The notes under the pieces were generated by a model. That model ran no database searches. It had not been told where the DNA came from and saw nothing but the letters and a program-made list of their open reading frames with translations. A stretch of 64,000 nt of DNA, from the NCBI GenBank assembly GCA_033398695.1, contig CM065817.1, forward strand, positions 64,592,001-64,656,000, read 5' to 3'. This DNA comes from Orobanche coerulescens. Taxonomy: Eukaryota; Streptophyta; Magnoliopsida; Lamiales; Orobanchaceae. Made by a program: the position numbers and the translations under genes. Below are positions 36,954-63,572 of this stretch, in pieces (position 1 is the stretch's first letter; each line of letters begins with the position of its first letter).

Positions 36954-37818
36954 ATGTCTTTCAATCCACTTGCTGTAATTCTCAAAGAAAATAAACTTGA
37001 TGGCACTAACTTTGCTGATTCGAAACATAATTTAAACATTGTCCTGACCACTGAAGAACACAAATTTTTTCTAACTGAGGAATGCCCATTGGAACCAGAT
37101 GTGGATTGGACACTTGATGAGATGAAAGAATACCGCAAATGGAAGAAATATGATGAGATGGCTCGCTGTTACATCTTGGCTTCTTTAGCAAATGTATTGC
37201 ACCATCAGCGTCATAGTATGGGCACGACCACAGAAATAATAAAAAGTCCCGGCGAGATGTTTGGTCATCAGAAACGGGCGGCTAGGCAAAAATGCTATGA
37301 GGGTCTTGATGACGACCAAAATGCCTGAAGGAACCCCGGTAAGGGATCATGTCCTAAAGTTGATTTCTCATCTAAATGAACTTGATATCTTAGGGGCTAC
37401 TAGCGATGCGAAAATGCAGGTTGATATCATCCTAGGAAGCTTACCTAAGAGCGTTGAGCAGTTCCACCTAAACTTCAATATGAATCGCAGGGAGTATACC
37501 TTGGCGGAATTGCTGACAGAGCTTCAAGATGCGGAAGGAATCTTCAGACAAGGGTATCAAGTTCTTGCGAAAACTAGTGTTTGGACTTCTAAACCCAAGT
37601 GGGGGAAGAAGAAGAAACAAGTGGTCCACAAGCAAGTGGCAACTCTCAAAGTAAAGAGCAAGGATCCTCATCCCGAGGCAAACAAAAAGGCAAAGGGAAA
37701 GTGCTGCAAGTGCAGTCAGAAAGGACATTCCAAAGCAGACTGCCCTGCTCTTAAGAAAGGTATGTCTCGTGCACTAGTAGTCAAAACATGTTTGGCAGCT
37801 TGTTCTACCACTTCGTAG
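36954..37818 (+). pseudogene. gag: E gag
   Basis: A copia Gag starting MSFNPLAVILKENKL, with DEMARCYILASL and the EMFGHQ block. The frame changes near 37287, in a run of A, and continues with TPVRDHVLKLISHLNEL to a CX2CX4HX4C knuckle (CCKCSQKGHSKADC, 37702-37743). TAG at 37816 comes just before the protease. Lineage within copia not assigned. Confidence 0.85.
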
Positions 37819-38546
37819 ATAGTAGATTCAGGCTCCACTGATCATGTTTGGTTTGACTCGCATGGTTTTCAGGTAACCAAGCATCTTAGTGCGGGCGAGA
37901 TCACCATCAACTGGGGCGATTATTCAAGGCTTATGACTAGTGCAGTGGGAGTAGTGCAGTTGAAGATTAATTATTAGTCCTTAATAATGTACTATTAGTA
38001 CCAGATTTTAGAATGAATTTAATTTCAGTTTCTAAATTGAGTTGTGATTGTTATTCAGTTTTTGTTGATGGTGATGCTATTATTAGAAGAAACGGTGAAT
38101 ATGTTCGCAAAGGTATCTATACTAATGGAATGTATGTCATTAATATTGTTCAAACTTCCATGTAGAAACATAAATATCTTAACTCTTTGTCTAAACCTAA
38201 AAGAGAAAAGAACCTTCAAACATAAACGAAATATATCTGTGGCATCTACAGTTAGGTCATGTAAACCTTAGAAGAATTCAAAGATTGGTAGATGATCATC
38301 CTTCGATGACATCCAAGTTAAGTCATTTCTAATTTTGTGAATTCTGTTTGGAAGGTAATATGACCAAAATGGTTTTTAAAATCAAGGAAAACCGTGCTCC
38401 AAATGTGCTAGAATTAGTTCATACGGATGTATGTGGTCCAATGAACATCTAGGCCTGGGGGTGGTTTCGAATGCTTTATCACGTTTATAGATGATTATTC
38501 GAGATATGAATAATCTATTTGATGCAACGTAAGTCTGAAGCATTTG
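37819..38546 (+). pseudogene. pol: E pol: protease and integrase start, decayed
   Basis: The protease active-site block VDSGSTDHVW is encoded directly after the gag stop. Weak, frame-shifting remains of the pre-integrase region (LRRIQRLVDD-like, 38268-38298) and integrase (VLELVHTDVCGPMN near 38407, FIDDYSRYE near 38480) follow. Many stops. It ends at the copia block MQRKSEAFDK, into which element G is inserted. Confidence 0.8.
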
Positions 38547-38551
38547 ACAAA

Positions 38552-40178
38552 TGATAAGTGTCAGATTTATACACTTATTCATGGTTTGTATCGATAAATT
38601 TCACCCATAATTGAGTTAGTCTACTCGTTTTTGCTTTTAATTAATTAGTTTTTAATAATTTTATTTTTATCGGATGAAGATGTAAATCTAGTCTTAATCG
38701 GATTGAATTACTGATTTACTCAAGAAATAACATGTTTATAAAATGTTCTCTTTGTTGAATTTTTATGTATTCATGTTGTAGGGCTTTCCGAGACGAGTTC
38801 GGAAGTCTTTCCGGATTCAAAATTAGAGTTATATATCAAAAGTTATCATCCGAAGAAGATTTGGGGCAAAAACGCAATGTCTAAGAAATTCTGGGTTGGA
38901 AATGAAGTCTGTAACTCCATACGGGCGTAACATCATAAAGTACGGGCGTAATTCACAAAGCAAAAAGCCGTAGCCATGTTACGGCCATAACTTCTCAATG
39001 TTACGGCCGTAAGTCAACACAGTTACGGCCGTAACTCCTCAATGTTACGGCCGTAACTCTTGGCAGATTATTGATCATTGGCTAATTTTTTATACTTTTG
39101 GTCTATTATTGAGGGGATAGCTGGCATTGATCCAATCTAATGTAATAATGCTGGAGTTTTGTAGCTATTAGATGACTTTAGGTGTATAAATAGACCCCTT
39201 AGATCCATCATTATTCATCATTCATCTTCTATTTTTCCACTTTTTGTAATATTTTCCTTTTGTGTGAAGAACACACTTGTGTTCTTGAGTGACTTGTGTA
39301 ATAGTGGTATAGCATATGTTGTTAAGGGAGTTTATTGCTTCTTTCTCCTTTATCTACTAAGGGAGTTAGGATCAATTCTTTCTCTTTTTCAACTAATAAT
39401 GACCACTCAAGCTTGTATTATGTTTATTAAACCCTTCATGGGCTAAGTTACTTAAGTTGGGATTATAAACAAGGTTAGTCATGTTATTTAAGTTTGTATA
39501 AAGATCTATTATGAATTACTTATTATTGTGTGTGATTTTGATTGTTTTACCAATTTTCATTTATTTAGCCAATAAATGACAATATTTATAGTCTTCATAT
39601 GTTTCGAAAGAAAATAGGTTTGATTAGATCAAATGATCTTCACTCTAAGTTGTTCTAGGGGATAGAAATATACCTCTAGACCTTAGATGATTCTTTGAGT
39701 TATTTTCATAAAACCTAATGCTATGTATTGAAACCAATAAGCATAGAAATATAGTGGATTGATTCAATATATCAGGGGCGTTTTATAGTTCGAAAGAGAA
39801 ACCGTCTTTTTAAGGAAAATCGAATCTACACAACATAATAAATAAATTCATCTTATGATCTCCTATACATATTCTATAACTAATGATGAACTAAGTTTGT
39901 AATCCCAACTATTTCATTTTATCTTTCATTAATCTATTATTAGTGCAATCTTTCATTTCCTTGAATATTAGAACTATTATTGCATTTTCTTTGCAATTGT
40001 CAAACCAAACTCTTAAATTGTGTGTTTCAATCATATAAATCTATAGAAAAAATGCTTAGATAGTGTAAAATTCAATATATAACCTAACTTCCTCGTGGGA
40101 TCGATAAACCGGACTCAAAAAGTCCACTTAGTAGATACGATATCGTGCACTTGCGATAGTTACACTAAAGACGTGTCA
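38552..40178 (+). repeat. Element G: 5' LTR
   Basis: It runs from TGATAAGTGTCAG to ACGTGTCA and is followed by a tRNA-Asp-type primer site. The first bases form an 8-bp perfect inverted repeat, ATAAGTGT/ACACTTAT (38554-38578). Four GTTACGGCC(A/G)TAA-type palindromes lie at 38968-39058, upstream of TATAAATA at 39185-39192. It matches 53893-55347, which lacks two of the palindromes. The flanking ACAAA at 38547-38551 is the likely left target duplication. Confidence 0.88.
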
Positions 40179-40184
40179 AGTTTT

Positions 40185-40202
40185 TGGCGCCGTTGCCGGG
40201 GA
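40185..40202 (+). promoter_or_regulatory. Primer binding site of G (tRNA-Asp type)
   Basis: TGGCGCCGTTGCCGGGGA, six bases after the LTR, is the primer site of Athila-type plant elements. Confidence 0.92.
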
Positions 40203-40417
40203 AGTATAAGTGTTATAATTGAAATCTTACATTGTAAACTATTTTTATAGATACAATTTCTCGACATTGTAACTTAGTACTCAATTGTGTTTGTCCGGTC
40301 AAGTGGCGGATAACGGTACTCCGTGACTATTAAAGTCGGAATTTTCAGTTTCCCACAACAATTGATATTTGTAGATATTTTCTCCTATTATTTTCATTTT
40401 TTTTTATTTTTTTTATC
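40203..40417 (+). other. G: 5' leader
   Basis: AT-rich, ending in a T-rich tract just before the ATG at 40418. No other feature is seen. Confidence 0.5.
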
Positions 40418-40984
40418 ATGGAAGAAACTTTGAATAAAATTGAAAAAAGATTTCCCTTTCTGAGCAAAAATGTCATTTTAAAAATTTACAAGACAGGACT
40501 TGAAAGGATGAGGTTGCTTATGAATAAAAGCATACCTTTTGACATTAGATTCTTAATTGAAGCCAAAGTGAGAATAGCAGGTGAATTTACAGAAATACCA
40601 ACTAGATTTTTACCAGGGCTAGGAAAAAGTTCATATGCCAAGAAACGACGAGCAAAGATAATAGCCATTTGCTATAAATGTGCTAGATGGAACTGTAATT
40701 TAAAATGTCGATCGTTAGGAATTCCATCAACAAACATAGAAGATAAAATTCAGTTCATTAAGGATGGTCTGAATAAAGAGAATTTAGATAATATCGAAAT
40801 TTCTCTTGACACGCATCCTAGTGGACTCGTACATTACGGAATTCGATGTTTGTGGAATAAATTCAAACCAGAATATGAACAACGTCTTGGGAATCTGACG
40901 TTAAAAGACCCTGTTTGCCAATTTGTAAGAAAATTAGATGGGAAGCTTCTCCCCGATCATAGAAGGCATTTAGGCCGTTTCTGA
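40418..40984 (+). CDS. ORF with similarity to carlavirus-type cysteine-rich nucleic-acid-binding proteins
   Basis: It is an intact 188-codon frame, the only one in this window. A GKSSYAKKRRAK basic stretch (residues 69-80) is directly followed by CX2CX4CX3C (Cys 85, 88, 93, 97), then a GIPSTN block and an FIKDGL block about 12 residues on. Basic run, zinc-finger-like cysteines and these trailing blocks, in this order, match my knowledge of the cysteine-rich proteins at the 3' end of carlavirus genomes. Those bind nucleic acid and affect RNA silencing. Those proteins are about 100-140 residues; this one has a longer C-terminus (from residue 130) that I do not recognise. The function in a retrotransposon is unknown; packaging or RNA binding would be guesses. 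It could also be an unrelated zinc-binding protein. Confidence 0.55.
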   Translation: MEETLNKIEKRFPFLSKNVILKIYKTGLERMRLLMNKSIPFDIRFLIEAKVRIAGEFTEIPTRFLPGLGKSSYAKKRRAKIIAICYKCARWNCNLKCRSLGIPSTNIEDKIQFIKDGLNKENLDNIEISLDTHPSGLVHYGIRCLWNKFKPEYEQRLGNLTLKDPVCQFVRKLDGKLLPDHRRHLGRF

Positions 40985-41269
40985 ACGTAAAATCAGAGGA
41001 AGATGTGAGCCACAATCACAACTACTGTACGTACACGTGAGTATCTTTAATTTTTGTCCTATGGTGAGATTTTCTGAATAAAAAAGGTGATACGCAATAA
41101 ATGCATTCATTATTCTATTGAGTAGTTGAAGCACAACCAACGCAATCACAAACTTGTTAAACAATTTTACCTCATTTTTTTCTATAAATAGCATTGTGCT
41201 TGTTTCTTTTATTCATCCCTCAAATTTGTACTTTTCTCTTTTTCTCTCTAATAATTTTTTTTTTCAAAA
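40985..41269 (+). promoter_or_regulatory. Region upstream of LOG-like gene with TATA box
   Basis: TATAAATA at 41183-41190 lies 80 bp before the ATG at 41270, a normal spacing for a plant promoter. If real, promoter DNA was carried along with the gene, which would argue against simple mRNA capture. Confidence 0.45.
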
Positions 41270-41899
41270 ATGGAATCATCATCTTCCACACAAAAATTTA
41301 GCACTGTCTGCATTTTTGGTGGAGCTAGTTATGGAAAAGAGGCATGCTTTACTGAAGCAGCCCACAACTTGGGTCGTACCTTAGGAGAAAAATTCATTCA
41401 TGTAGTTTACGGAGGAGGAAGTCTAGGATTAATGGTACGAGCTGCTGCTTCTGCCTATATGGAAGGAGTAAGAGTGTTGGGAATAATTTCAAAACCTCTG
41501 GCTGAAAGTAAAATCACCGGGGCAACTATTGGAGATGAGTTTTGATCTGTAAATATGCAAGATCGCATAACTCACATGATAAATAATTCTGGCACCTTTA
41601 TCACCCTTCCCGGTGGTTTTGACACTCTTGAGGAACTTTTTCATGTGGTTACCAGAGCCCAGCTAAATGTTCATCAAAAACCAATAGGTCTGCTTAATGT
41701 CAATGGTTTCTTTGATGGTTTACTATCTTTCATCGACTACTCTGCTGAAAAGGGTTTTATTTCCGAGCATGCTAAACGAATCATAGTCGTTGCAACAACA
41801 CAAGAAGAACTAATCAAAAAACTCATTGAATTTGTTCCTCAACCAGATCCAGCTCTAGCTAAAATTGTCTGGATGGAAGATTTTACCATGAGAAAATGA
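41270..41899 (+). pseudogene. LONELY GUY-like cytokinin riboside 5'-monophosphate phosphoribohydrolase, intronless, broken
   Basis: LOG enzymes release active cytokinin bases from their nucleotides in the cytosol. The frame covers about 209 codons, the whole family length: CIFGGAS near the N-terminus, VYGGGSLGLM (residues 46-55), GVRVLGIISK, and LLNVNGFF and the helical C-terminus. TGA at codon 92 (41543-41545) interrupts it. The family signature PGGxGTxxE reads PGGFDTLEE (codons 114-122), so the conserved Gly is Asp; the nearby conserved Arg is kept. Plant LOG genes normally have several introns and this copy has none. It lies inside retrotransposon G, downstream of the virus-like ORF. Identification is secure; activity is very unlikely. 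Confidence 0.88.
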
Positions 41900-42105
41900 A
41901 AAGTGGATTCATTCCTCTCCCTTTGATAACCCATGTCGGACCTCTTGTATTTTTACTTTCTGTTGTGTGTAAAAATCGTGCTAAATGATGGCAGCTTAAG
42001 GAGTTTCTTCTTGATCTCTTGACGCGCATCTATTCGCGATTTATGTATTGTTATTTTATTGTTTGTTTTTTATAAAAGAATTGATGGCAGCGTAAGGCGA
42101 CTCTT
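41900..42105 (+). other. G: sequence after LOG-like pseudogene
   Basis: Probably LOG-like 3' flank. A TGATGGCAGC(T/G)TAAGG word occurs twice (about 41985 and 42083). Element H starts at 42111. Confidence 0.45.
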
Positions 42106-42110
42106 AGGAC
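42106..42110. repeat. Target site duplication of H, left copy (imperfect)
   Basis: AGGAC here versus CGGAC at 52457-52461: four of five bases match. Confidence 0.6.
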
Positions 42111-42312
42111 TGTAATATTCGGGGATAATTTTTTTTCGTGTTACTGTTGAGTTGTACATATTCATTTGGAATTGTACAAGTGTTGTTGTTTTGGACTGAT
42201 ACAATGTATATTATATTGGAATATTTCGGGATCGAAATATTATACTTGTCGTCGGGTTGGTTTCGTCGTTTGAATGTTGGTTGGAGAGTTTGGATTTTTG
42301 GCTAAGTTCATA

Positions 42313-42690
42313 GCCTTAGCATACGCTACGGATGTAGCATTACGTACGCTAGCGTGCTGCTATTACGTACGTTATGCCTGTAAGGTTACGTACGTAATGC
42401 TTTGTATGGCAGGAACCTTCCTCGTAGTCACTTTTGGCCGGTGGGTCCCGAGCATCTTCCGATCGGATCTCACTATTGCAGTCAATGGGCCCTTACGTAC
42501 GTTAAGAGGTGAGCTCTACGTACGTAATGCAGGTCTTGTTAACGTACGTAATAAGTTCTTGTTTACGTACGTTAAGGCCTCCGTATTTTAGTCTAGTTAG
42601 TTCTGGATTTTTCATTACGTATGTTAATGTCATGGCATAGCGTACGTAATGTCTCTTACGTACGTTAACCATAGTGTATAACGTACGTAA
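42313..42690. repeat. ACGTACGT palindrome array in H's U3
   Basis: About a dozen TTACGTACGTAA/TAACGTACGTTA-type words, most perfectly self-complementary, spaced about 20-40 bp. The same array recurs in the 3' LTR (48700-49075). Confidence 0.88.
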
Positions 42691-44495
42691 TGAGTTTGTC
42701 AGTCTATTTATGTTAGTTTCGTATTTCATTTCCTCACGAACCAAAACACAATTTCTCTCCCTATAATCGTCCGTTTGGACTTGTTATTGATGTTTAGCAC
42801 CTTCCAACTCGATCTTCATCATCCTAGCTTGGATTGAAGCTTGAAGTTGGAAGCTTGTTGGTGCTCCTTTGGTGTTTGGAGGCTTCTTCTTGTTCTTCTT
42901 CGGTAAGTTCCCTCAATCTCTTGTTCTTCAAGTGATTTTCAAGTTTTTGTTGTTGTTTTCTTTGGGTATTGTTTGATTAATGGAGTATATCATGATTCTT
43001 CATGGTTTTGATAAACTTTTGATGAAGAAATGATAGTATCACTTGAGTTGGATTATGTTCTTGATGTTTTAGATTGTTGGAGGTTTTTAATCATGTCTAG
43101 GAAGGATTATGTTAAGATTGTTATATGATTAACATAGCCTTGAGATGATTTTTGTTGTTGGTGGTGTTCTTGAAAGATTTTAACCATTTTAGTAAGGATT
43201 TATGATAATTTAAGGGGTGATTATCATAATTTGAAAATATTTGAGTGAATCTTGTTGTTTAATCCGAATTCATGATGTATTGATGAAGGATTTTTGTTTC
43301 AGACATCGTGATTATTGAGTTGATGATGTTCTTGGGGTGATAATGATAATATTGATAATATTATCATTGTAGGAGGATCAATTTGATGATATTGGTGATA
43401 TTATCATTTTGAGATGTTTGTTTTGATAATTGTTCTTAAGTGAATCTTGTTGAATGGATTTCACAAGTGTTAAGAACGTAATGATCATGTTAATTGATCA
43501 TCGAGGTGTTGGAGGATTTTGGAATTCATAGTTGAGAACTATGATATTCGTTCGTCTTGATGTGATCGATTCGTGTTTGAATCGGGCTTTGTCCTTGTCG
43601 TTGTTTTCTATTGATTTTGTGTTTTTGAATGAATCGTTTTCATTCAAGGTTGTTCGAGTGTTGTGATCGTCGGGAGGTGCCGTTCGTCGTTTCGTGCCAG
43701 GACGTTGATCGTGGAAGGACTTTCTCGCCTTCGGTTTGAGGAAAGTTTTATACTTGTACTGGTCAATGAGATTAATGTTATCATATATGTGTATGAATGT
43801 ATTGTATCATTTCGAGACTTAGTCTCTTTGTGATTTGTTGATATTCGGGAATTGTTTGATGCAATACCCTTCGGTGATTATGCCAGATGTGATTGTTATT
43901 CGTTAACGGCCGGTTTAAGGCATTGAGATTCTTGTTGTCGATAGCCGGTTCGCGGCATCGATGTATCGATTATTATTGTTGACGTGAATGTCGTTCTGAG
44001 GCATCGTTGAATCGTTATTATTGAATTGGAACTGTCACTATGATGTTGCATTGGCCAACTGAAGGCGTTTGATATATTCATTTATTATATCTGTTTCGGT
44101 GGTCATTTAAGATGCCGGGACATTCACTCTACCGTATCATTGTGTATCGATTGACCGTTCTGAGGTAATCGATGTATTTAATTGGAATTATCGAAGATAA
44201 TTCCCATCCGTTGTATCATTGGTTATCGATTAACCGTTCTAAAGTAATCGATGTATTGAATTGGGACTGTCAAGGATAGTTTCCATCCGTTAAGTTGTTG
44301 CGATCGATTGGCCATTCCAAGGCAGTCGAGGTATTTGAATTGGGACCGCCGTGGACGGTGCCCATCCATGAGTTGTTGTTGTCGTGTTGGCCGACTCAAG
44401 GCATCACGCTATTATTCTTGTGAATTTGGTAATCTTGGGATTGTTACTGTTGTGATTAATTATGTTTTGGAGGCTAGTCTTGGCTAGTGCTCGAT

Positions 44496-45095
44496 GGGTA
44501 AGCTTGGGACTTGAACCTTCGCGGTTGGTTTCCCAACACCTACAGTTCAGTAGGTCACGGTCATGTTAATGATCTCATTATGGGTAAGCTTGGGGCTTGA
44601 ACCTTCGCGGTTGGTTTCCCAACACCTACAGTTCAGTAGGTCACGGTCTGTTAATAATCTCATTATGGGTAAGCTTGGGGCTTGAACCTTCACGGTTAGT
44701 TTCCCAGCACCTACAGTTCAGTAGGTCACGGTCATGTTAATGATCTCATTATGGGTAAGCTTGGGGCTTGAACCTTCGCGGTTGGTTTCCCAACACCTAC
44801 AGTTTAGTAGGTCACGGTCATGTTAATGATCTCATTATGGGTAAGCTTGGGGCTTGAACCTTCGCGATTGGTTTCCCAACACCTACAGTTCAGTAGGTCA
44901 CGGTCTGTTAATAATCTCATTATGGGTAAGCTTGGGGCTTGAACCTTCGCGGTTAGTTTCCCAGCACCTACAGTTCAGTAGGTCACGGTCACTGGGTGAT
45001 CTCATTATGGGTAAGTCTGGGGCTTGAACCCTCGCGGTTGGTTTCCCAGCACCTACAATTCAGCAGGTCACGGTCATTGGATGATCTCATTGTGA
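44496..45095. repeat. 83-86 bp tandem repeat, seven copies, in H's 5' LTR
   Basis: Units begin GGGTAAGCTTGGGGCTTGAA at 44496, 44582, 44667, 44753, 44838, 44923 and 45008 (each +-1). Each contains CCTACAGTTCAGTAGGT, an imperfect hairpin. Confidence 0.9.
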
Positions 45096-45998
45096 TACGG
45101 CTTCGTGCCGTGGCTTCGGCCCTCATTGTGATACGGATTCGTGCCGTGGCTTCGGCCCTCATTGATACAACTTCGGGTTGTTTTGGCTTCGGGCCATTGT
45201 GGTGATTGATAGCTTCGGCTGAGTGACATTCAGGGTATTATGATGATAAACAGCTTCGGGCTGTTCGGCTGTTAGGCCATTGTGATGTATCGGTATTCCT
45301 ATTGGAGCCTTCGGGCATTGTGATTCGTATCTATTTCAGTGTTTGGCTTGGATTACCTTTGGGTGATGTATTGTTGTGCTCTGTATTGATGATTTGCCGT
45401 TGGGCACTTGTGTTCTAGCCTGTTGAGCAGGTATTGATCGTATGCCGTGGGCATAGTATTCCACGAATGCTCGATTCTTACTTTGGTTTGTGAGCATCTC
45501 GTATTACCATTACTATACTATTCATTCTACCCTTTGGATGCATATCATGTTGTACATGTATTTGATAATCATTATCTGGATGACTGACCTCGTGGGGGCG
45601 GAACATGTTTTCATGTTCTAGGTGTTTGCGAGGAGAGAGTTGAGACACAGGGGCATGACGGTGGCGACGAGGCATTCGAGCGATACTAGTCCGAGATGTT
45701 TTGGTGTTCATGTCAGTCAGACAATTGGAGTACTCCAGATTTGTTCAGTCGTTGTTATTTTGTATCATCCTAGCTAGGCTCGTGGATGTCGCTGTATTTT
45801 ATTTAGGCCATGTAGGCTCGTGGATGTCGCTGTCATTGAAATTCCATATCGGAATATTATGTTGGATGTCAGTGTAGGAATTGTGATTCCACTTTTGCTC
45901 AGTTTGTTGTATTTTAGTCATGTTCGCCTGGTGGATCTCCTGGTGTGGGGTCCACGGCACTGTAATGACCCAATGGGATTTGGGGGTGTTACAGAAGA

Positions 45999-46010
45999 TG
46001 GTATCAAAGC
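45999..46010 (+). promoter_or_regulatory. Primer binding site of H
   Basis: TGGTATCAAAGC, five bases after the LTR, is a one-base variant of the tRNA-iMet site. Confidence 0.85.
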
Positions 46011-46449
46011 ATTGGGTTGTGAGATACCCTGATATGTGAGTTACGTGGTTCTACCGACGCGGTAGTAGTGGACTGTCAGGTTATGACAATCTGGACAGTC
46101 GGGCTTTGTGAGTCGTGGTAGTTGAACGGCTGTATGAGTCATTCTTTCATCGAGTCGTCGTCAGTGAAGACTAGTATCGCAAGACCTCGAAGCTTCGTAT
46201 GACCTGTGTAAGGACTCGATTCTCTTGTATGCTCATACATTCATTATGCCATTGATTATACATGTTTTGTTGAAACCTGTATGTAACATTGTGTTACGAC
46301 CCATTCATGATTATTTGCTATGGGGCGTGTTGGCTCAGTATTGACTATAATTAGCATGTTTGAAATGATTGTTTATTTGTTGAGTATGTATACTCGTGTT
46401 TGGCTATTGACTTAGTATTGTGGATTGGCCGTTGAGGCATAATTGAGCC
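46011..46449 (+). other. H: 5' leader
   Basis: T/G-rich, without a gene. A TTCTTTCAG word lies near 46470, just before the first Gag residues, so a leader intron like that suspected in F is possible. Confidence 0.45.
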
Positions 46450-47801
46450 TTGTTCATGATCGAGCGTTATTCTTTCAGTTTGGAAAGAGGAAACCGAGGA
46501 CGTGGCAGAGGGGGTAAAGGCTACAGAGCAGGCCGAAACCTAGAACCTCATGTTTATACGCGTACGGATGCCGAGATGGATCAGGATTCGGCCGGAGATG
46601 TGACTTATGAGACAGATTTCCCTTCAGAACGTCATACTCGAGGAGTCGATCAGATTGAGAGTGGACCCGTCGACCCTTTCTTGCTTATGAGGGGCATGAT
46701 GGCTCAGATGACTCAAATGACGCAGATGATGGAGGCCATGCAGACCTCAGTGGTTCGTGGTCCACCACAGCAGGGATCCCAAGTGCCGTTTTATGGACAG
46801 TCGAGGAGAGTGAGTCAGATTATCGGCGACATCTCTCGTCAGAGGCCGCCTATTTTTGAGGGTTTGTCGGAACCAGCTGATATTGTTAATTGGCTTGAAC
46901 ATTTTGATAAACTCTTCGACATGGTTCAGTGTCCGGAAGAGAGTAAGGTGGCAGTAGCAGATTACTATTTGAGTAAGGCGCTTATTCTTGGTGGCTTTCT
47001 GTAAAACCCACTGATCGTGATTGTGCTTGGAGTGAGTTTAAGACTCTCATGTTAGAGAGGTATTATCTGGCTCCACTTCGTGAAGCCAAGTTGTTAGATG
47101 TTTTGAACCCCGAATCCGTCGAGGACGAGGGTGTTATTGTTATTTCGGAGAAGTTTCAGGGACTCCTTCAGTTTGCTTCATCTGTTATCCGTACTGAGGC
47201 CGATAAGATCAAGTATTTTAGCAAGAGGCTGAACACACAGTTGAGGATGCAGTTGTTCAACCATAATTGCAATTCACTTGGTGAATTCATCGAGAAGGCT
47301 TTTGGAGCAGAGCTTTTGATCAAGGAGCTTGCTCGGAAGAACCCTTCAGTTTCTTCCAGTGAGAGGACTAGGATTCCAGTTTGTTCAGAGGGACATCGGG
47401 CTCCGACGTCGAAGAGGTCAACTTCTAGTCGTCTTCGTTCTGGGAAAGCATCTTCCTCTCAGGCGACGGGTTCGACAGTTGTTTGCTTTAACTGTGATAC
47501 AATAGGACATTGCAGTACTCGGTGCTCGATGCGGTCTATTGCTTGTTTTCTGTGTGGGAGGCAGGGACACCTTCAGAAATACTGCAGGAGTTCTAGTACC
47601 AGTAGGTCTCGAGAGGGCTCACGGGCCTCGAGATATTTTGTTACTCCAGTCCGTACTTCATCCAAGGGGTCCTATCGGGCTTCGGGAGCCAGAGGTATGG
47701 ACACTCGAGGAGGAGCGGCGAGCTCAGATTTGGATCTTCCTCGAGTCGATCAGATCGAGGAGTTCGATGACCTGGAGGATGTTGATTTTGGATACATTTG
47801 A
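46450..47801 (+). pseudogene. gag: H gag with two zinc knuckles, one frameshift
   Basis: The Arg/Gly-rich N-terminus (RGRGRGGKGY) is followed by a Met/Gln-rich helix, then a Retrotrans_gag-type core (RPPIFEGLSEPADIVNWLEHF). A one-base change near 46975-46980 shifts frame; the second frame carries the paired Trp of the core, an ERYYLAPLREAK block, and two knuckles, CFNCDTIGHCSTRC and CFLCGRQGHLQKYC (about 47485-47575). It stops at 47799 after an acidic tail. With a single frameshift it is much better preserved than D's gag. No pol follows. Confidence 0.88.
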
Positions 47802-48481
47802 GATGTAACCTTAATTTTTTTTTATACTTTATTTTTCGGATTGATGTTTAACTCGGTCTGTACTTTAGTATTGTGGTTGCGAACCATTTATGGTTGATCT
47901 ATCTTGTAATGATTGTATCTGAGAATCTTGAGATTTGAGGTCGTGTGATGTGTTTTTCCTTCCTTTTGGTGTTGTACCCGAGATTTTGTAATAATCTGGG
48001 TAATTGTTCATCTCAATTCGGGATGCCGAGTCGTGAGGACTTGGGCGTGCGGTTGATATGGTCCTGAGGACTATGTTTGTGTTGTCATTATTTTTGCGTG
48101 GCGTGAGTCAGTGTTTGCATGGACGTTCGATGCTGATGAGAACGGGGAAGTGTACACCGATGGTCGTAGGCATGTACAATGAGCGGCTCCCTCGGGATGT
48201 GTGCGCCGGTGTTACGAGTCTTGCGGGTGGTGCGACTTCCTGGATGGTCTCTGACGGAGGAGTCATGATTCGATTGATCTCGCACTTGGTTGAGTATTTT
48301 TATCACTTGTTTTTCGACGTGTTCAGGCAGAGGAGACGCGGGAACCCGTGGGGTTGGCCTGATTACTCAGACGGAGTTGCTCATATTGAGGGGTATTCCT
48401 GGATATGTTGTTTTCAGATCTTGATGGATAGTTCGTACCCCGTGTTTTTGCACCCTGAGTTTCGGGGACGAAACTCTTTTT
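47802..48481 (+). other. H: 3' noncoding region
   Basis: No pol remnant seen; the 141-codon open frame at 48058 has no recognisable domain. The inverted repeat GAGTTTCGGGGACGAAACTC lies at 48457-48476. Confidence 0.6.
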
Positions 48482-48493
48482 AAGGGGGGAGTA
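48482..48493 (+). promoter_or_regulatory. Polypurine tract of H
   Basis: AAGGGGGGAGTA directly precedes the 3' LTR start TGTAATATCCGG. Confidence 0.88.
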
Positions 48494-51400
48494 TGTAATA
48501 TCCGGGGATAATTTTTTTTCGTGTTACTGTTGAGTTGTACATATTCATTTGGAATTGTACAAGTGTTGATGTTTTGGACTGATACAATGTATATTGTATT
48601 GGAATATTTCGGGATCGAAATATTATACTTGTCATCGGGTTGGTTTCGTCGTTTGAATGTTGGTTGGAGAGTTTGGATTTTTGGCTAAGTTCATAGCCTT
48701 AGCGTACGCTACGGATGTAGCATTACATATGCTAGCGTGTTGCTATTACGTACGTTATGCCTGTAAGGTTACGTACGTAATGCTTGGTAGGTGGCAGGAA
48801 CCTTCCTCGTAGTCACTTTCGGCCGGTGGGTCCCGAGCATCTTCCGATCGGATCTCACTATTGCAGTCAACGGGCCCTTACATACGTTAAGAGGTGAGCT
48901 CTACGTACGTAATGCAGGTCTTGTTAACGTACGTAATAAGTTCTTGTTTACGTACGTTAAGGCCTCCGTATTTTAGTCGAGTTAGTTCTGGATTTTTCAT
49001 TACGTACGTTAATGTCATGGCATAGCGTACGTAATGTCTCTTACGTATGTTAACCATAGTGTATAACGTACGTAATGAGTTTGTCAGTCTATTTATGTTA
49101 GCTTCGTATTTAATTTCCTCATGAACTAAAACACAATTTCTCTCCCTAGAATCGTCCGTTTGGACTTGTTATTGATGTTTAGCACCTTCCAACTCGATCT
49201 TCATCATCCTAGCTTGGATTGAAGCTTGAAGTTGGAAGCTTGTTGGTGCTCCTTTGGTGTTTGGAGGCTTCTTCTTGTTCTTCTTCGGTAAGTTCCCTCA
49301 ATCTCTTGTTCTTCAAGTGATTTTCAAGTTTTTGTTGTTGTTTTCTCCGGGTATTGTTTGATTAATGGAGTATATCATGATTCTTCATGGTTTTGATAAA
49401 CTTTTGATGAAGAACATGATAGTATCACTTGAGTTGGATTATGTTCTTGATGTTTTAGATTGTTGGAGGTTTTTAATCATGTCTAGGAAGGATTATGTTA
49501 AGATTGTTATATGATTAACATAGCCTTGAGATGATTTTTGTTGTTGGTGGTGTTCTTGAAAGATTTTAACCATTTTAGTAAGGATTTATGATAATTTAAG
49601 GGGTGATTATCATAATTTGAAAATGGTTGAGTGAATCTTGTTGTTTAATCCGAATTCATGATGTATTGATGAAGGATTTTTGTTTGAACATCATGATTAT
49701 TGAGTTGATGATGTTCTTGGGGTGATAATGATAATATTGATAATATTATCATTGTAGGAGGATCAATTTGATGATATTGGTGATATTATCATTTTGAGAT
49801 GTTTGTTTTGATAATTGTTCTTAAGTGAATCTTGTTGAATGGATTTCACAAGTGTTAAGAACGTAATGATCATGTTAATTGATCATCGAGGTGTTGGAGG
49901 ATGTTGGAATTCATAGTTGAGAACTATGATATTCGTTCGTGCGGTGTGATCGATTCGTGTTTGAATCGGGCTTTGTCCTTGTCGTTGTTTTCTATTGATT
50001 TTGTGTTTTTGAATGAATCGTTTTCATTCAAGGTTGTTCGAGTGTTGTGATCGTCGGGAGGCACCGTTCGTCGTTTCGTGCCAGGACGTTGATTGTGGAA
50101 GGACTTTCTCGCCTTCGGTTTGAGGCAAGTTTTATACTTGTACTGGTCAATGAGATTAATGTTATCATATATGTGTATGAATGTATTGTATCATTTCGAG
50201 ACTTAGTCTCTTTGTGATTTGTTGATATTCGGGAATTGTTTGATGCAATACCCTTCGGTGATTATGCCAGATGTGATTGTTATTCGTTAACGGCCGGTTT
50301 AAGGCATTGAGATTCTTGTTGTCGATAGCCGGTTCGCGGCATCGATGTCGATTATTATTGTTGACGTGAATGTCGTTCTGAGGCATTGTTGAATCGTTAT
50401 TATTGAATTGGAACTGTCACTGTGATGTTGCATTGGCCGACTGAAGGCGTTTGATATATTCGTTTATTATATCTGTTTCGGTGGTCAGTTTAAGATGCCG
50501 GGACATCCACTCTACCGTATCATTCTGTATCGATTGACCGTTCTGAGGTAATCGATGTATTTACTTGGAATTATCGAAGATAATTCCCATCCGTTGTATC
50601 ATTGGCTATCGATTAACCGTTCTAAAGTAACTGATGTATTGAATTGGGACTGTCAAGGATAGTTTCCATCCGTTAAGTTGTTGTGATCGATTGGCCATTC
50701 CAAGGCAGTCGTGGTATTTGAATTGGGACCGCCGTGGACGGTGCCCATCCATGAGTTGTTGTTGTCGTGTTGGCCGACTCAAGGCAGCACGCTATTATTC
50801 TTGTGAATTTGGTAATCTTGGGATTGTTACTGTTGTGATTAATTATGTTTTGGAGGCTAGTCTCGGATAGTGCTCGATGGGTAAGCTTGGGGCTTGAACC
50901 TTCGCGGTTGGTTTCCCAACACCTACAGTTCAGTAGGTCACGGTCATGTTAATGATCTCATTATGGGTAAGCTTGGGGCTTGAACCTTAGCAGTTGGTTT
51001 CCCAACACCTACAGTTCAGTAGGTCACGGTCATGTTAATGATCTCATTATGGGTAAGCTTGGGGCTTGAACCTCCGCGGTTAGTTTCCCAACACCTACAG
51101 TTCAGTAGGTCACGGTCATGTTAATGATCTCATTATGGGTAAGCTTGGGGCTTGAACCTTCGTGGTTGGTTTCCCAACACCTACGATTGATGAGTCACGG
51201 TCATGTTAATGATCTCATTATGGGTAAGCTTGGGGCTTGAACCTTCGCGGTTGGTTTCCCAACACCTACAGTTCAGTAGGTCACGGTCATGTTAATGATC
51301 TCATTATGGGTAAGCTTGGGGCTTGAACCTTCGCGGTTGGTTTCCCAACACCTACATTCGATGGGTCACGGTCATGTTAATGATCTCATTATGGGTAAGC

Positions 51401-52456
51401 TTGGGGCTTGAACCTTCGCGGTTGGTTTCCCAACACCTACAGTTCAGTAGGTCACGGTCACTGGGTGATCTCATTATGTGTAAGTCTGGGGCTTGAACCC
51501 TCACGGTTGGTTTCCCAGCACCTGCAATTCAGCAGGTCACGGTCATTGGATGATCTCATTGTGATACGGCTTCGTGCCGTGGCTTCGGCCCTCACTATGA
51601 TACGGCTTCGTGCCGTGGCTTCGGCCCTCATTGATACAGCTTCGGACTGTTTTGGATTCGGGCCATTGTGGTGATTGACAGCTTCGGCTGAGTGACATTC
51701 AGGGTAGTATGATGATAAACAGCTTCAGGCTGTTCGGCTGTTAGGCCATTGTGATGTATCGGTATTCCTGTTGGAGCCTTCGGGCATTGTGATTCGTATC
51801 TATTTCAGTGTTTGGCTTGGGTTACCTTCGGGTGATGTATTGTTGTGCTTTGTATTGATGATTCGCCGTTGGGCACTTGTGTTCTAACCTGTTGAGCAGG
51901 TATTGATCGTATGCCGTGGGCATAGTATTCCACGAATGCTCGATTCTTACTTTGGTTTGTGAGCATCTCGTATTACCATTACTATACTATTCATTCTGCC
52001 CTTTGGATGCATATCATGTTGTACATGTATTTGATAATCAATATCTGGATGACTGACCCCGTGGGGGCGGAACATGTTTTCATGTTTTAGGTGTTTGCGA
52101 GGAGAGAGTTGAGACACAGGGGCATGACGGTGGCGACGAGGCATTCGAGCGATACTAGTCCGATATGTTTTGGTGTTCATGTCAGTCAGACAATTGGAGT
52201 ACTCCAGTTTTGTTCAGTCATTGTCATTTTGTATCATCCGAGCTAGGCTCGTGGATGTCGCTGTATTTTATTTAGGCCATGTAGGCCCACTGTTGTCATT
52301 GAAATTCCATATCGGAATATTATGTTGGATGTCAGTGTAGGAATTGTGATTCCCCTTTTGGTCAGTTTGTTGTATTTTAGTCATGTTCGCCTGGTGGATC
52401 TCCTGGTGTGGGATCCACGGCACTGTAATGACTCAATGGGATTTGGGGGTGTTACA
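48494..52456 (+). repeat. 3' LTR of H
   Basis: Matches 42111-45993. It has eight rather than seven copies of the 83-86 bp repeat (50879-51560), two of them internally deviant near 51183 and 51357. CGGAC follows at 52457. Confidence 0.92.
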
Positions 52457-52461
52457 CGGAC

Positions 52462-53892
52462 TTTCTTGAAGCGTATCTTAAAAATTATGTTATACTTCCG
52501 AGTATATTTTATTATTTTTTTGTTGTTTGCCTCGTATATTTATTCTCTTGCAGATTCTAAAAGGTGTTAGCTCAAGCAAAACTTTCATCAACAGGGAGTA
52601 TTCTACTTTTCTCCATTGCTTTTTTTTTCTATTTTTTTTAAACTGAGGACAGTTTTATTTTCAAGTTTGGGGGTGGTATGTTTTGGTGTGTTGGTCTTTT
52701 GGTGTGTTTTGATTATTTTGGTTATTTACCGTAAATTTTTTTAATATATATATATATATATACATATAGATAGATATATAGATAGATAGTATTTTGATTT
52801 ATGAGATTTCTAGATGTGGCCATAACACCAATAAGTTAGCTATATACAAGCTTCTAAAATCGTTTTAACCGGTAAAAAAATTGTATATTCCAAAATTTTT
52901 GAGCCTTAATCTCTCTTTCCAAGCCTTGTAGTTATCATATAAAATCGAGTCATTCGTTACCTTTAGAAAAGAAGAATTAGTCGGTTGATGAAAAATAGAA
53001 CTGAAATGTACTTAATTTGTGGAGTTTTTGATTTTTTCATGCTTAACTAATAAATGATTTCTGCAAAAATTCAATTCCCTAAAAAAAAGTCATTGGTGAA
53101 AGGAGTCTAGTTGAAAAGGTGTTGAGCAGCAACAGCTGCCTAATTTTGGGGGTCCTGAAATTTTGAAAAAAAATAAAGGACTAACCATTGTTGGTGCGTA
53201 GCTGCCGTCTCACACGAAATGGAAATTTTGTTGGTGAAAAGAGCTACACGTTAGCAAATAACGATGTGAAATCTATCACCTAAAAAAATGGAAATTGTGT
53301 CGGTGAAAAGAGCTACACGTTAGCAAATAACGGTGTGAAAGCTATCACCTAAAAAAAATGGAAATGGTGTTGGTGAAAAGAGCTACACGTTAACAAATAA
53401 CGGTGTGAAAGCTATCATTAAAAGGGATGTAGTTTATGAGCAGATTTGAATTAATTAGCGGCTGAATTTCAATACACTCAATTTTGTGAACAATCACAAT
53501 ATTTGATGACGCCGATGAAATTCTTCTTCATATTGAGTCGAAAAATAAACGAGTGATCGAGAGAACCCATTAAAGGGAGTCGTGTGTATCACGAGTGGAA
53601 AAGAAATAATCAACCTTTTGGGGGAAAACCTTGCATTTTGGAATTACAAAATAAAGCCGTGTTTTAACTTTAAAATCATTAGTAGATTTATTTTGAATCT
53701 TGATTCATTTCTATCTACTGTATAAAGCTGGTTGTTGTGTATTAATGACATTTTGATCTCCTTTTCCCTTTTTATATGATTATTTTTCTTAATTTATGTG
53801 TGTATTATTATTTTTGTGTCTTATTTTTATTTTTGGAGTGTGATTAATAAAGAGTCTTGCTCGGGACTAGCAAGAATTCAAGTTTAGGGGTG
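52462..53892 (+). other. G: 3' internal region, noncoding
   Basis: AT-rich. It contains AAGTTTGGGGGTGG at 52663-52676, a (TA)n/(GATA)n microsatellite at 52744-52790, three copies of a 69-70 bp repeat at 53219-53418, and AAGTTTAGGGGTG directly before the 3' LTR. No ORF with a recognisable domain. Confidence 0.7.
53219..53418. repeat. 69-70 bp tandem repeat, three copies, in G
   Basis: Units start ATGGAAATT(T/G) at 53219, 53288 and 53358. Each holds GGTGAAAAGAGCTACACGTTA and ends in an A-run before the next ATGG. Confidence 0.85.
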
Positions 53893-55347
53893 TGATAAGT
53901 GTCAGTTTTATATACTTATTCATGGTTTGTATCGATAAATTTCACCCATAATTGAGCTAGTCTACTCGTTTTTGTTTTTAATTAATTAGTTTTTAATAAT
54001 TTTATTTTTATCGGATGAAGATGTAAATCTAGTCTTAATCGGATTGAATTACCGATTTACTCAAGAAATAACATGTTTATAAAATATTCTCTTTGTTGAA
54101 TTTTTATGTATTCATGTTGTAGGGCTTTCCTAGACGAGTTCGGCAATCTTTCTGGATTCAAAATCAGAGTTATATATATCAAAAGTTATCATCCGAAGAA
54201 GATTTGGGGCAAAAATGCAAAGTCTAAGAAATTCTGGGCTGAAAATGAAGTCTGAAACTCCATACGGGCGTAACATCATAAAGTACGGGCGTAATTCACA
54301 AAGCAAAAAGCCGTAGCCATGTTACGGCCATAACTTCTCAATGTTACGGCCGTAACTCTTGGCAGATTATTGATCATTGCCTAATTTTTTATACTTTTGG
54401 TCTATTATTGAGGGGATGGCTAGCATTGATCCGATCTAATGTAATAATACTTGAGTTTTAGAGCTATTAGATGACTTTATGTGTATAAATAGACCCCTTA
54501 GATCCATCATTATTCATCACTCATCTTATATTTTTCCACTTTTTGTAATATTTTCTTTTTGTGTGAAGAACACACTTGTGTTCTTGAGTGACTCGTGTAA
54601 TAGTGGTATAACATATGTTGTTAAGGGAGTTTATTGCTTCTTTCTCCTATATCTACTAAGGGAGTTAGAATCAATTCTTTCTCTTTTTCAACTAATAATG
54701 ACCACTTAAGCTTGTATCATGTTTATTAAACCCTTCATGGGCTAAGTTACTTGAGTTGGGATTATAAACAAGCTTAGTCATGTTATTTAAGTTTGTATAA
54801 AGATCTATTATGAATTACTTATTATTGTGTGTGATTTTCATTGTTTTACCAATCTTTATTTATTTGGCCAATAAATGATGATATTTATGGTCTTCATATG
54901 TTTCGAAAAAAAATATGTTTGATTAGATCAAATGATCTTCACTCTAAGTTGTTCTAGGGGATAGAAATGTACCTCTATACCTTAGATGATTATTTGAGTT
55001 ATTTTCATAAAACCTAATGCTATGTATTGAAGCCAATAACGTAGAAATATAGTGGATTGATTCAATATATCAGGGGCGTTTTATAGTTCGAAAGAGAAAC
55101 CTTCTTTTTAAGGAAAATCGAATCTACACAACATAATAAGTAAATTCATCTTATGATCTCTTATACATCTTCTATAACTAATGATGAACTAAGTTTGTAA
55201 TCCCAACTATTTCATTTTATCTTTCATTAATCTATTATTAGTGCAATCTTTCATTTCCTTGAATATTAGAACTATTATTGCATTTTCTTTGCAATTGTCA
55301 AACCAAACTCTTAAATTGTGTGTTTCAATCAAATAAATCTATATAAC
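53893..55347 (+). repeat. G: 3' LTR, cut by element I
   Basis: It starts TGATAAGTGTCAG and follows the 5' LTR closely. TATAAATA lies at 54484-54491. It stops at 55347, where element I begins, lacking about the last 135 bp of the 5' LTR. Its part from 54158 is repeated at 60925-62114. Confidence 0.88.
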
Positions 55348-56670
55348 TGTTAGGCGTATTTTTATACGCTTATTTATCATTATTTCGTATTATTTTGGCG
55401 AGTAAAATTGCATAAATGAGCTTTTAATGTCTTATTCTTGTATGTTTGACAGGAGATTGTAGTCTGGAAGCTAAAACGAGGTAAAATGGGCGAAAACGGC
55501 GAATTTTGGCCATGGGCCGCGGCACAAGGTAAGTGGGCCGCTGCACAGGAAGGCACCCAGCGACCCCTGAGCAATCTGTACTCTGAGCCGCGGCACAGAT
55601 TTGGTGATCCGCGGCCCAGATGAATTAAAAGGCGCCCAGGCGTCCAGCTGAAGACCGTGTGCCGCGGCACAGATTAAGTGAGCCGCGGCACACAAGGCGG
55701 TTTTGGTGTGCTCCGCGCGGATTTTGGCCGTTTTGAAGCCAGTTCTCGACCTACTCACACGAACGCGATTTGGAGACTGTTGAGAGCTATAAATAAGGGT
55801 TTAAGACCCTAATTAATCATCTTGGAGGCTGGAGAAAAGGAGGATCACAGAAGATTATCGCAGACGAGAGAAGCGGAAGAGATCAAGGGCAGAGGGCGGA
55901 AGCCAGAAGAACGGAGGAATCCGAGCTCTTCATCTGCGTTTGATTATCATACTTTTATTTATTAATTCTATATTTTCATTATTTAGCATGTCAGGCTAAA
56001 ACTCTAATCTAGGATTTTGATGAAACCTACGTTTTGACGGATTTGCTTGAGATTATCTATTTAATTCCCTTTTTGTTGAGTTTTCCCAATCGTGTTTAAT
56101 GCTTTCAATTATCTGGCCAATAATTGTATTGTTTTAATCATTCAATTCGAATCGGGAGAGGAGAGTTGGTGAGGAACTATTGGTGAGGACCGTTTTATTT
56201 CGTGAGATAGGAATATACTCATAGGAACTACGTGGCCTTTTGGAGATTTTATGCTTTTTGCCTATTGACGAATTAATTCACCTAGGGATAGAGTGCGTTA
56301 TTCGCCTTTAGAAAAATCTATTGACCTCGGGAGAGGCGGTAGAGTATATTAGCAATCTTCGCCTTCAATAAATTGGGAAAATCATTAACTTCAGATAATC
56401 GAGAGTAAATTCGGATAAACCGAGGTGGATTCAGAATCCTAGACTTATTCATCATTTGATTGTCTTTCTTCAAGCGATCGTTTTTACTGTTTAGTCTTTT
56501 ATTAATTTTCTTTAGTAATTAATTGCTACCCAAAGTTCGATTGTTCAAATAAAACTGGGATACACAAAAATCGGTAGTTAGTGATTCAGTCCTCATGGGA
56601 ACGATACTCACACATAACTTTATTACTTGTATACGATAACGTGCACTTGCGTTCAAGAAAAATCGCAACA
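55348..56670 (+). repeat. 5' LTR of I
   Basis: It runs from TGTTAGGCG to CGCAACA. GCGTAT-TTTT-ATACGC (55354-55369) forms a perfect 6-bp stem at the very start. About six CCGCGG-centred words (55505-55690) lie upstream of TATAAATA at 55788-55795. Confidence 0.88.
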
Positions 56671-56676
56671 AGTTTT

Positions 56677-56694
56677 TGGCGCCGTTGCTGGGGA
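56677..56694 (+). promoter_or_regulatory. Primer binding site of I (tRNA-Asp type)
   Basis: TGGCGCCGTTGCTGGGGA, one base different from the site in G. Confidence 0.92.
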
Positions 56695-56821
56695 CTAAAA
56701 TTTTTGCTAATATCGATTTCAGTATTTCTAGTCTTAGTTTGAACGTTTTTATCTACTTATTTTCGTGTATTTAATTTTATTTATTTATTTGTTTTTCCTT
56801 TCAGGATCTTTCGCGTAGTGC

Positions 56822-58363
56822 ATGAGAAAATTTGGTAACGAAGGCCTACTACCTTTGGATACCGAACTCGAGCGCACTCTTCGAAGAAACAAGAAGGAGA
56901 AACGACAGTTACCAGCGAAAGTCAACATGACCGAAAATATCGAAATTCAAGGAGGAGATAACCATGTGCAGCAAGATCAACCGGCACTGGCTCTTCGAGA
57001 TTATGCTATGCCGCAAATTGATGCAAACTTTTCGGGGATTCGGCGTCCCACTATCCAGGCAAACAATTTCGAAATCAAGCCTGCTATTATTCAGATGGTG
57101 CAGGTGAGCCAATTATGTGGATTGCCGAACGATGACCCCAACGCACATATTGCTTCGTTTCTCGAGATTTGTGACACGTTCAAGAACAATGGTGTCACCG
57201 ACGATGCTATCCGATTACGGCTTTTCCCTTTCTCTTTGAGGGATAAAGCGAAATTTTGGCTGAATTCTTTACCGCCAGGCTCGATCACGACATGGGCAGA
57301 GTTAGCGCAAGCCTTCCTTGCTAAATTCTTCCCACCTTCTAAGACGGCGAGACTGAGAAACGAGATCACTACCTTTGGTCAGTATGATATGGAATCGCTC
57401 CACGAGGCATGGGAGCGATACAAAGATTTGTTACGGAGATGCCCACATCACGGCCTTCCGGACTGGCTTCAGATTCAGACGTTCTACAATGGATTGAGTG
57501 CCTCTACACGCACTCTCGTGGATGCAGCCGCCGATGGAGCTTTGATGGGAAAGACGATGGCTGAAGCACACTCGTTGTTGGAAGCTATGGCCGCTAATGC
57601 TTATCAATGGCCATCCGAACGAATAACGCCGAAGCGAGTTATGGAAATTTCGAGTAATGACCCGATATCTACATTGTCAGCCCAAGTAGCAGCATTAACA
57701 CAGCAGCTTCAAGCATTTTCGCATGCTCCTTCCCCCGTTACCATTGAGTCTTGCAATTGGTGCAACGGATCGCATCCTAGCGCGGAGTGCCAAGTCGGGA
57801 ACCCTTTCGAGCAACATCCGATGGAGCAAGCTCAATTCCTGGGAAACGGAAATCGACAAAATAATTCTTACCCCAGCACTTATAATCAAGGGTGGCGAAA
57901 TCACCAAAAATTTTCGTGGAGGAACGGGCAAGCTTTAAAACCTCCACAAGTTCAATTCGCGCAGCCCCCACAGCAGCCCCTTCAATCACCAAAGGTATCA
58001 TTGGAAGATGCTCTTGCTCAATTGGCGGCTAACACGAGCCAATTCATGGCTCGCACCGAAACGACCCTCCAAAATCATTCTACCTCCATCCGAAACCTAG
58101 AAACACAAATGGGGCAGATTGCTAACCTATTGTCCTCTCGGTATCAAGGTTCATTGCCCAGTGCAACCGAAATGAAACCCAAGGAAAACGTGCAAGCAAT
58201 CGAATTACGAAGTGGAAAGGAGTTGAAAGGGCACCCTATCAATAACAAAGAGCAGCCGATCAAGCAAAGTGAGAAGGAAAAGGATGAGGCGCCCAAGCCA
58301 AAGGAAGTATTGACTACTCAGCCCACTCCTCAAATCTCATTCCCACAGCGTTTCCAAAAGTAA
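56822..58363 (+). pseudogene. gag: I gag (Athila type)
   Basis: 513 open codons. The capsid-like Retrotrans_gag core is at about residues 95-230 (DPNAHIASFLEICDTF, FPFSLRDKAKFWL, FFPPSKTARLRNEI). A CNWCNGSHPSAEC element near residue 305 replaces a standard knuckle. The C-terminus is Gln-rich. TAA at 58361 ends it. The downstream pol is in the same frame, so this stop may be a late mutation in one long gag-pol frame, or the real Gag end. The order and length fit Athila. Confidence 0.85.
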
Positions 58364-63421: not shown

Positions 63422-63427
63422 AGTTTT

Positions 63428-63445
63428 TGGCGCCGTTGCTGGGGA
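63428..63445 (+). promoter_or_regulatory. Primer binding site, second copy of I
   Basis: Same sequence as 56677-56694. Confidence 0.9.
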
Positions 63446-63572
63446 CTAAAATTTTTGCTAATATCGATTTCAGTATTTCTAGTCTTAGTTTGAACGTTTT
63501 TATCTACTTATTTTCGTGTATTTAATTTTATTTATTTATTTGTTTTTCCTTTCAGGATCTTTCGCGTAGTGC

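Follow-up and report, generated by a model that had tools for sequence, protein, structure and literature searches.

Structure of element G and its two genes

Element G is a long terminal repeat (LTR) element in the genome of Orobanche coerulescens (3.65 Gb, 1279 contigs), lying on the forward strand at positions 38552 to 55346 of a 64,000-nucleotide stretch (G000:C17:64592001-64656000, hereafter the window). It carries a gene for a carlavirus-type nucleic-acid-binding protein (NABP) and a homologue of LONELY GUY (LOG). G is interrupted by a nested insertion, H, and its two interior pieces outside H amount to about 3.4 kb. All features given below are on the forward strand.

The NABP open reading frame (ORF; 40418 to 40984) has 188 codons. 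Carlavirus-like cysteine-rich features had been ascribed to it in a preliminary description of this DNA, and profile searches bear this out: the predicted protein passes the Pfam cut-offs for Carla_C4 (E-value = 2.9e-6) and Viral_NABP (E-value = 2e-5). The final codons of the window ORF are in a different frame from those of the sister copies compared, and the proteins of the element copies are 181 to 188 aa long. Among the best 120 of 239 protein matches, the closest is from O. minor, with 85% identity.

The LOG homologue (41270 to 41899) resembles cytokinin riboside 5'-monophosphate phosphoribohydrolases. It is intronless, as had been described, but broken in the window: an in-frame TGA occurs at codon 92, and the frame ends early (209 codons versus 218 in many copies). 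Its motif reads PGGFDTLEE, so the window copy has neither the PGGxGTxxE motif nor the open frame of a LONELY GUY enzyme. The second piece retains significant similarity to the Lysine_decarbox domain (PF03641, E-value = 2.7e-26) and to the Arabidopsis protein At2g37210 (PDB 2a33, E-value = 2.1e-30). An exact PGGFGTLE is present in 24 of 44 usable sister copies, and six more match save for one unread codon. The closest proteins are from O. hederae and O. minor (82-85%, among the best 120 of 1593 matches).

G exhibits the features expected of an LTR retrotransposon. The 5' LTR (38552 to 40178, 1627 bp, TGATAAGTGTC...GTGTCA) matches the 3' LTR (53893 to 55346) and agrees with the LTRs of four complete sister copies described below, which are 1593-1626 bp long, start with TGATAAGT and end with GTGTCA. 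The two LTRs of G are 96.1% identical, differing at 56 of 1452 aligned sites (Kimura two-parameter distance, K2P, 0.040). Both LTRs of the preliminary description are present, the right one being truncated at 55346 by an adjoining LTR element; the target site duplication (TSD) of G itself is unreadable because its right end is cut. A polypurine tract (53880 to 53892, AAGTTTAGGGGTG) precedes the 3' LTR, and a primer binding site (PBS; 40185 to 40202, TGGCGCCGTTGCCGGGGA), which we take to be that of tRNA-Asp, follows the 5' LTR. According to a passage of PMC6317226, tRNA-Asp is one of the primers of non-chromovirus elements. A 5' leader (40203 to 40259) follows, and NABP is flanked by a 32-nt segment upstream (40297 to 40328, GGTCAAGTGGCGGATAACGGTACTCCGTGACT) and a 30-nt segment (40995 to 41024, AGAGGAAGATGTGAGCCACAATCACAACTA) located beyond the NABP stop of the sister copies. 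The 26-nt core of the latter is exact in 58 of 80 loci checked in the same genome, window copies included.

No gag or pol ORF is found in G outside H, where NABP and the two LOG pieces are the only ORFs of at least 90 aa. The gag and pol of an autonomous Gypsy/Athila element are likewise absent among ORFs of at least about 90 aa in the four complete copies, in agreement with the gag/pol-less element described earlier. By eye, no replicase, movement or coat protein gene was recognised among the ORFs of G, the four copies and a more distant relative from another plant (L089, below). We rejected an endogenous carlavirus or betaflexivirus as an explanation of G, no replicase or coat ORF having been recognised in G or the four copies. 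We are highly confident of this anatomy.

The 3' region of G contains three tandem repeats of 69-70 bp (53217 to 53438), and repeated matches to it occur in sister copies too. The nested element H (42111 to 52461), outside G proper, has direct repeats spaced by about 6384 bp; these form LTRs about 3.9 kb in length that contain 85-86-bp tandem repeats. Four sister copies (L031, L034, L035, L036) are continuous across its insertion point and lack it. H carries an ORF with zinc-knuckle matches under the Pfam cut-off; its ORFs of at least 90 aa outside 48058-48483 include no recognisable pol. On the left, G adjoins copia-type sequence (36933-38551) with a Retrotran_gag_2 match at 37261-37818. The LTR element starting at 55347 has a gag ORF, a reverse transcriptase (RT), the same AGTTT spacer as G and a PBS differing by one base. 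The 3' LTR tail of G and this gag/RT element are part of a tandem duplication (54158-64000, period about 6767 bp) restarting at 60925, with 21 differences over 3064 aligned sites between the units.

Copies of G and relatives bearing gag and integrase

Searches of the source genome returned 11,765 first-look candidates for NABP and 14,157 for LOG (unverified as copies), of which the best 150 each were scored, all with E-value <1e-111 for NABP. The copies compared below are best-scoring matches, each sample favouring the gene by which it was picked, and their shares of open frames are not genome-wide rates. At the top 30 NABP-selected loci (window included), the LTR lies upstream of NABP in all 30, and LOG is at least partly present in 27. 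At the top 30 LOG-selected loci (window included), 28 have NABP upstream (24 full, 4 partial), and 21 have the LTR within the 1.5-kb flank. An accidental single capture was rejected given the many candidates for each gene and the LTR at 30/30 NABP-selected loci. LOG copies without NABP are found at L060 and L082, the latter with other sequence upstream.

Six loci, hand-picked among these top loci, were compared over 7 kb. Four of them hold complete LTR-NABP-LOG-LTR elements with interiors of 3.24-3.36 kb devoid of gag or pol, each bordered by a perfect 5-bp TSD (GCTGC, CGAAG, TGCTC and TTTAT, by eye) and with LTR-LTR K2P distances of 0.025, 0.025, 0.035 and 0.060. In the remaining two, the element stops after LOG or within the 3' region. 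Thirteen loci compared are alike at the leader junction of G, and 26 of 58 loci (14/29 NABP-selected, 12/29 LOG-selected) have an exact 31-nt pattern spanning this junction. This common junction points to one deletion. Three other NABP-LOG copies (L065, L070, L084) have sequence unlike G upstream of the NABP leader, and no integrase was found there.

Both frames are open in some copies, a case that the preliminary description had considered. Requiring at least 178 aa for NABP and 205 aa for LOG, 42 of 50 NABP-selected copies have NABP open, 9 have LOG open and 7 have both; this set includes 20 extra NABP-to-LOG slices from the lower rows of the 150 scored. The corresponding numbers for 28 LOG-selected copies are 10, 22 and 9.

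The relatives of G that bear gag or integrase suggest where the two genes stood. At locus L069, with the overlapping upstream piece L087, a match of 808 nt at 94.4% identity covers the leader and the preceding 3' portion of a G-type LTR, ending at 40259 of the window. Next come a gag (Pfam E-value = 1.1e-9, broken frames) and a protease ORF that falls slightly short of its Pfam cut-off; after these, only the final 122 nt of NABP are present, ahead of LOG and the beginning of the G 3' region. Locus L068 has the same protease-NABP junction.

Contig L089, from another plant, has an integrase (rve, E-value = 2.3e-16) followed by an NABP 59% identical to that of the window, which passes the Viral_NABP cut-off and falls slightly under that of Carla_C4. 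The 32 nt before and the 30 nt after NABP noted above are identical to those of G. Because these flanks are identical while NABP is only 59% identical, 40297-40328 and 40995-41024 appear to be constrained at the nucleotide level, perhaps as a cis-acting RNA or DNA element. The L089 record (DAIEQH010000041.1) is named as a Nomurabacteria metagenome-assembled genome and contains plant-type retroelement genes; contamination is likely.

With the L089 integrase as query, the source genome yields 158,630 candidates, of which the best 91 were scored (72-75% identity). Slices were taken 3' of four hits: an NABP begins in three, at 86-87% identity and with a stop inside the sequence examined in two, but not in the fourth. 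Downstream of at least 23 of the best 91 hits, LOG occurs at a distance of no more than 2 kb, which is 950-1030 nt in 21 cases; 0.0037 such neighbours are expected by chance and none occurs in control arrangements. LOG positions came from a separate search of which the best 150 were scored. The integrase-NABP-LOG order is present in the source genome. The preliminary description had likened G to elements that capture host genes, and had considered that copies with gag/pol might lack the two genes, only the window copy having them. The latter idea does not agree with integrase-bearing copies that carry NABP or LOG, and we rejected a gain of the genes after the loss of gag/pol, since integrase-NABP and integrase-LOG neighbours exist in the same genome.

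G resembles a derivative of a putative Athila-type element from which gag-pol was deleted; the Pfam matches bearing on the lineage of this parent are to gag, a protease-like ORF (just under cut-off), integrase and RT. The deletion break in G probably lies between 40259 and about 40292. The stretch 40262-40277 may be the end of the integrase frame; a tblastn search with the integrase matched none of 60 loci.

Variation among copies and occurrence in other plants

We compared the ratio of amino-acid-changing to silent variants (N/S), relative to a spacer-based neutral expectation, between variants shared by at least three copies and singletons. In the NABP-selected set (50 copies, 44 usable for LOG and 47 for the spacer), shared variants are depleted in amino-acid changes in NABP (0.13 versus 0.56 for singletons, Fisher p = 6e-5) and in LOG (0.34 versus 0.81, p = 0.006; p = 0.027 and 0.008 at thresholds of 4 and 6 copies). 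The spacer has no such depletion (1.09 versus 0.62, p = 0.27). For LOG, these figures replace those of an unfiltered run including misaligned copies (0.40 versus 1.08). When both sets are joined, the contrast is 0.21 versus 0.77 for NABP (p = 1.7e-5), 0.34 versus 0.79 for LOG (p = 0.0017) and 0.82 versus 0.56 for the spacer (p = 0.35). At a threshold of 2, the spacer gives p = 0.04 in the opposite direction, a warning of noise. The ratio of nonsynonymous to synonymous rates (dN/dS) of NABP is 0.22-0.26 between G and three integrase-linked copies and 0.36 between G and L089; one close copy pair gives 1.32, from six changes. The shared variants suggest purifying selection on both NABP and LOG.

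Relatives of both proteins bear the names of several other plant genera. NABP relatives are named from Orobanche, Xanthoceras, Acer, Populus and Hibiscus (best 120 of 239), and LOG relatives from Orobanche, Rehmannia, Paulownia and Xanthoceras (best 120 of 1593), with Reevesia, Diplodiscus, Pterospermum, Populus, Melia and Primulina in a further search (best 120 of 7919). O. minor twice has NABP and LOG with adjacent locus tags (OROMI_020768/020769 and 009435/009434). For contigs >2 kb, 4 of 15 LOG contig sizes recur exactly among 39 NABP contig sizes (0.116 expected), which suggests that an equal-sized pair may be one contig. NABP and LOG distances correlate over seven pairs (r = 0.71, p = 0.012), leaving out sizes 905 and 1018 (too short for both genes) and 1386 (doubtful); with all ten size pairs, r = 0.53 (p = 0.007). 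NABP and LOG proteins thus recur in other eudicots, where some records appear to be paired.

A phylogenetic analysis places the window LOG and 37 relatives in one clade (98% support) that excludes AtLOG3 and AtLOG8 and has a single Xanthoceras protein as sister. This tree comprises the window, 38 relatives hand-picked from 223, of which only some are tied to NABP, and two Arabidopsis and two bacterial references.

Possible origin and role of the two genes

LOG enzymes free active cytokinin. Section 12 of PMC9289625 discusses the role of LOG in cytokinin activity. Passages of PMC12172455 describe viral cysteine-rich proteins as silencing suppressors, and p12 of chrysanthemum virus B (CVB) as a weak suppressor that is also a transcription factor inducing hyperplasia. 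The reading that we prefer is that G is a non-autonomous LTR retrotransposon derived from an Athila-type element and that NABP and LOG have functional roles in it. Taken as a whole, we regard it as probable. An Athila-type element with NABP and LOG originally 3' of its integrase would have been stripped of gag and pol, leaving the LTRs, the PBS, the 3' region and these two genes, with Gag and Pol supplied in trans by full-length relatives. NABP would bind nucleic acid, like the cysteine-rich proteins of betaflexiviruses, and curb silencing or alter host transcription, while LOG would release active cytokinin locally. Cells expressing them would keep dividing, so that copies made there would reach the germ line, and such a cell-by-cell advantage would explain the retention of just NABP and LOG in a unit without gag/pol. 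The hyperplasia induced by CVB p12 and the release of cytokinin by LOG both point to cell proliferation, hence this mechanism; we hold this functional part only tentatively.

Several observations weigh against this interpretation or parts of it. Sampling by best match biases the tallies of both open frames and amino-acid changes. NABP is absent at 2 of the 30 LOG-selected loci. In the LOG-selected set, the contrast for NABP is weaker (0.25 versus 0.62, p = 0.037; range 0.02-0.04) and that for LOG vanishes (0.21 versus 0.28, p = 0.63), singletons being equally depleted; in our view, sampling by LOG score hides any contrast there. The neutral baseline is rough because singletons of the non-coding spacer give 0.56-0.93 instead of 1. 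The G LTR is linked to gag at one locus, L087/L069: L088, upstream of L068, has gag, but the 3.8 kb examined there show no LTR of G. The full gag-pol-NABP-LOG order in one element is inferred from separate loci. No LOG is found in the 983 nt after NABP in L089 (2348-3330), so the pair is not universal; LOG may have been gained later or lost. The name Athila for the lineage is a putative assignment from motifs. A search of BFVD with a weak structure model of NABP gave no viral fold match at E<=0.001.

G may also be an ordinary deletion derivative to which the two genes contribute nothing, kept through selection on the parent element and reseeding by recombination or repeated deletion. The low number of open LOG frames in the NABP-selected sample (9 of 50), its near-neutral LOG singletons (0.81) and the other deletion classes, namely L068/L069 with gag-protease and the NABP tail only and L065/L070/L084 with a different leader, are all in line with this passive role. 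The like leader junction (13 loci; 26 of 58 for the 31-nt pattern) points to one deletion, yet shared variants are poor in amino-acid changes in both genes, and we consider such a role rather unlikely. A still more sceptical view takes LOG and NABP for host genes merely flanked by LTR elements. Plants do have host LOG genes, our tree includes just two identified host LOGs, and most of the sampled LOG relatives are not tied to elements. In this genome, the view is contradicted by the LTRs, the TSDs and the location 3' of integrase, besides more than 10,000 first-look candidates per gene and the separation of the LOG clade from AtLOG3 and AtLOG8; it is extremely improbable.

NABP could also be non-viral, having begun as a zinc-binding protein of plants or transposons that betaflexiviruses later took up, or resemble viral proteins by chance. 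Its family of about 182 aa occurs in several eudicot genera and is conserved beyond the Pfam match, and a scan of IMG/VR gave 47 pattern stretches and no relative on a viral contig. Against a non-viral origin, at E<=0.01 all 24 members of our alignment (A1) have a Carla_C4 match and 23 a Viral_NABP match. The structure models are of low confidence (predicted local distance difference test, pLDDT, 59 for the first and 66.8 for the later, weak one), and none of the 26 fold matches is significant; 8 of these carry the names of proteins from plant viruses that we take to be betaflexivirids, 5 of them in the top 6. A non-viral origin is unlikely in our judgement, and a chance likeness is unlikely too; transfer between element and virus may have gone either way.

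LTR elements with extra genes have precedents. LOGL4 is said to have been noted in Athila-like elements by Steinbauerova in 2011. LOG in LTR elements is already known from section 12 of PMC9289625, which gives a YgdH domain among the LTR retrotransposon consensuses of Citrus sinensis and C. clementina, and of Populus trichocarpa when its filter is not applied, in agreement with Steinbauerova 2011. Such Athila-type elements with a LOG-like (LOGL4/YgdH) extra ORF combine an LTR element and a LOG-type gene, as does G; they were found through reverse transcriptase as a marker, and that section mentions neither an NABP gene nor a gag/pol-less form. Orchid Ty3/Gypsy elements with an AlkB N6-methyladenosine (m6A) demethylase domain are another case of a Betaflexiviridae-type domain fixed in a plant Gypsy family; according to PMC9289625, they occur in two Phalaenopsis species. 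They differ from G in having another domain and no hormone gene. The cysteine-rich/nucleic-acid-binding proteins of carlaviruses share Carla_C4 and Viral_NABP with the NABP of G, which differs in lying within an LTR element, in its 181-188 aa and in having no replicase or coat protein ORF recognised alongside. According to passages of a plant survey (PMC3136472), it found one betaflexivirid sequence, which is replicase-like, from cucumber, and not an NABP. Maize Bs1 and other transducing LTR elements carry other genes, host gene sequences in the case of Bs1; as presented in a passage of PMC7264820, transduced genes are in one or few copies, unlike the integrase-linked NABP and LOG with thousands of first-look candidates. 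Our searches of open-licence papers returned no report of NABP after integrase in LTR elements, of the NABP-LOG pair, or of the gag/pol-less form.

The retention of extra genes downstream of pol in plant retroelements still calls for an explanation, and here the extra genes are recognisable: NABP and LOG are found again in several plant families and have lasted in an element that lacks gag and pol. Because of this form, a benefit is testable, as any selection on G must come from the NABP and LOG proteins. The finding ties RNA-virus suppressor genes to retroelements. It also points to a possible route for transposons to shift cytokinin levels. More speculatively, and with rather low expectation, there may be a eudicot-wide LTR lineage that has long used the env position for a virus-type silencing/transcription regulator and a cytokinin-activating enzyme acting on host division and defence, with a broomrape derivative reduced to just the two effector genes, in perhaps ten thousand copies and preserved by selection. 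On this view, the cysteine-rich proteins of viruses might even derive from such elements. If true, this would be a retroelement living by manipulating development.

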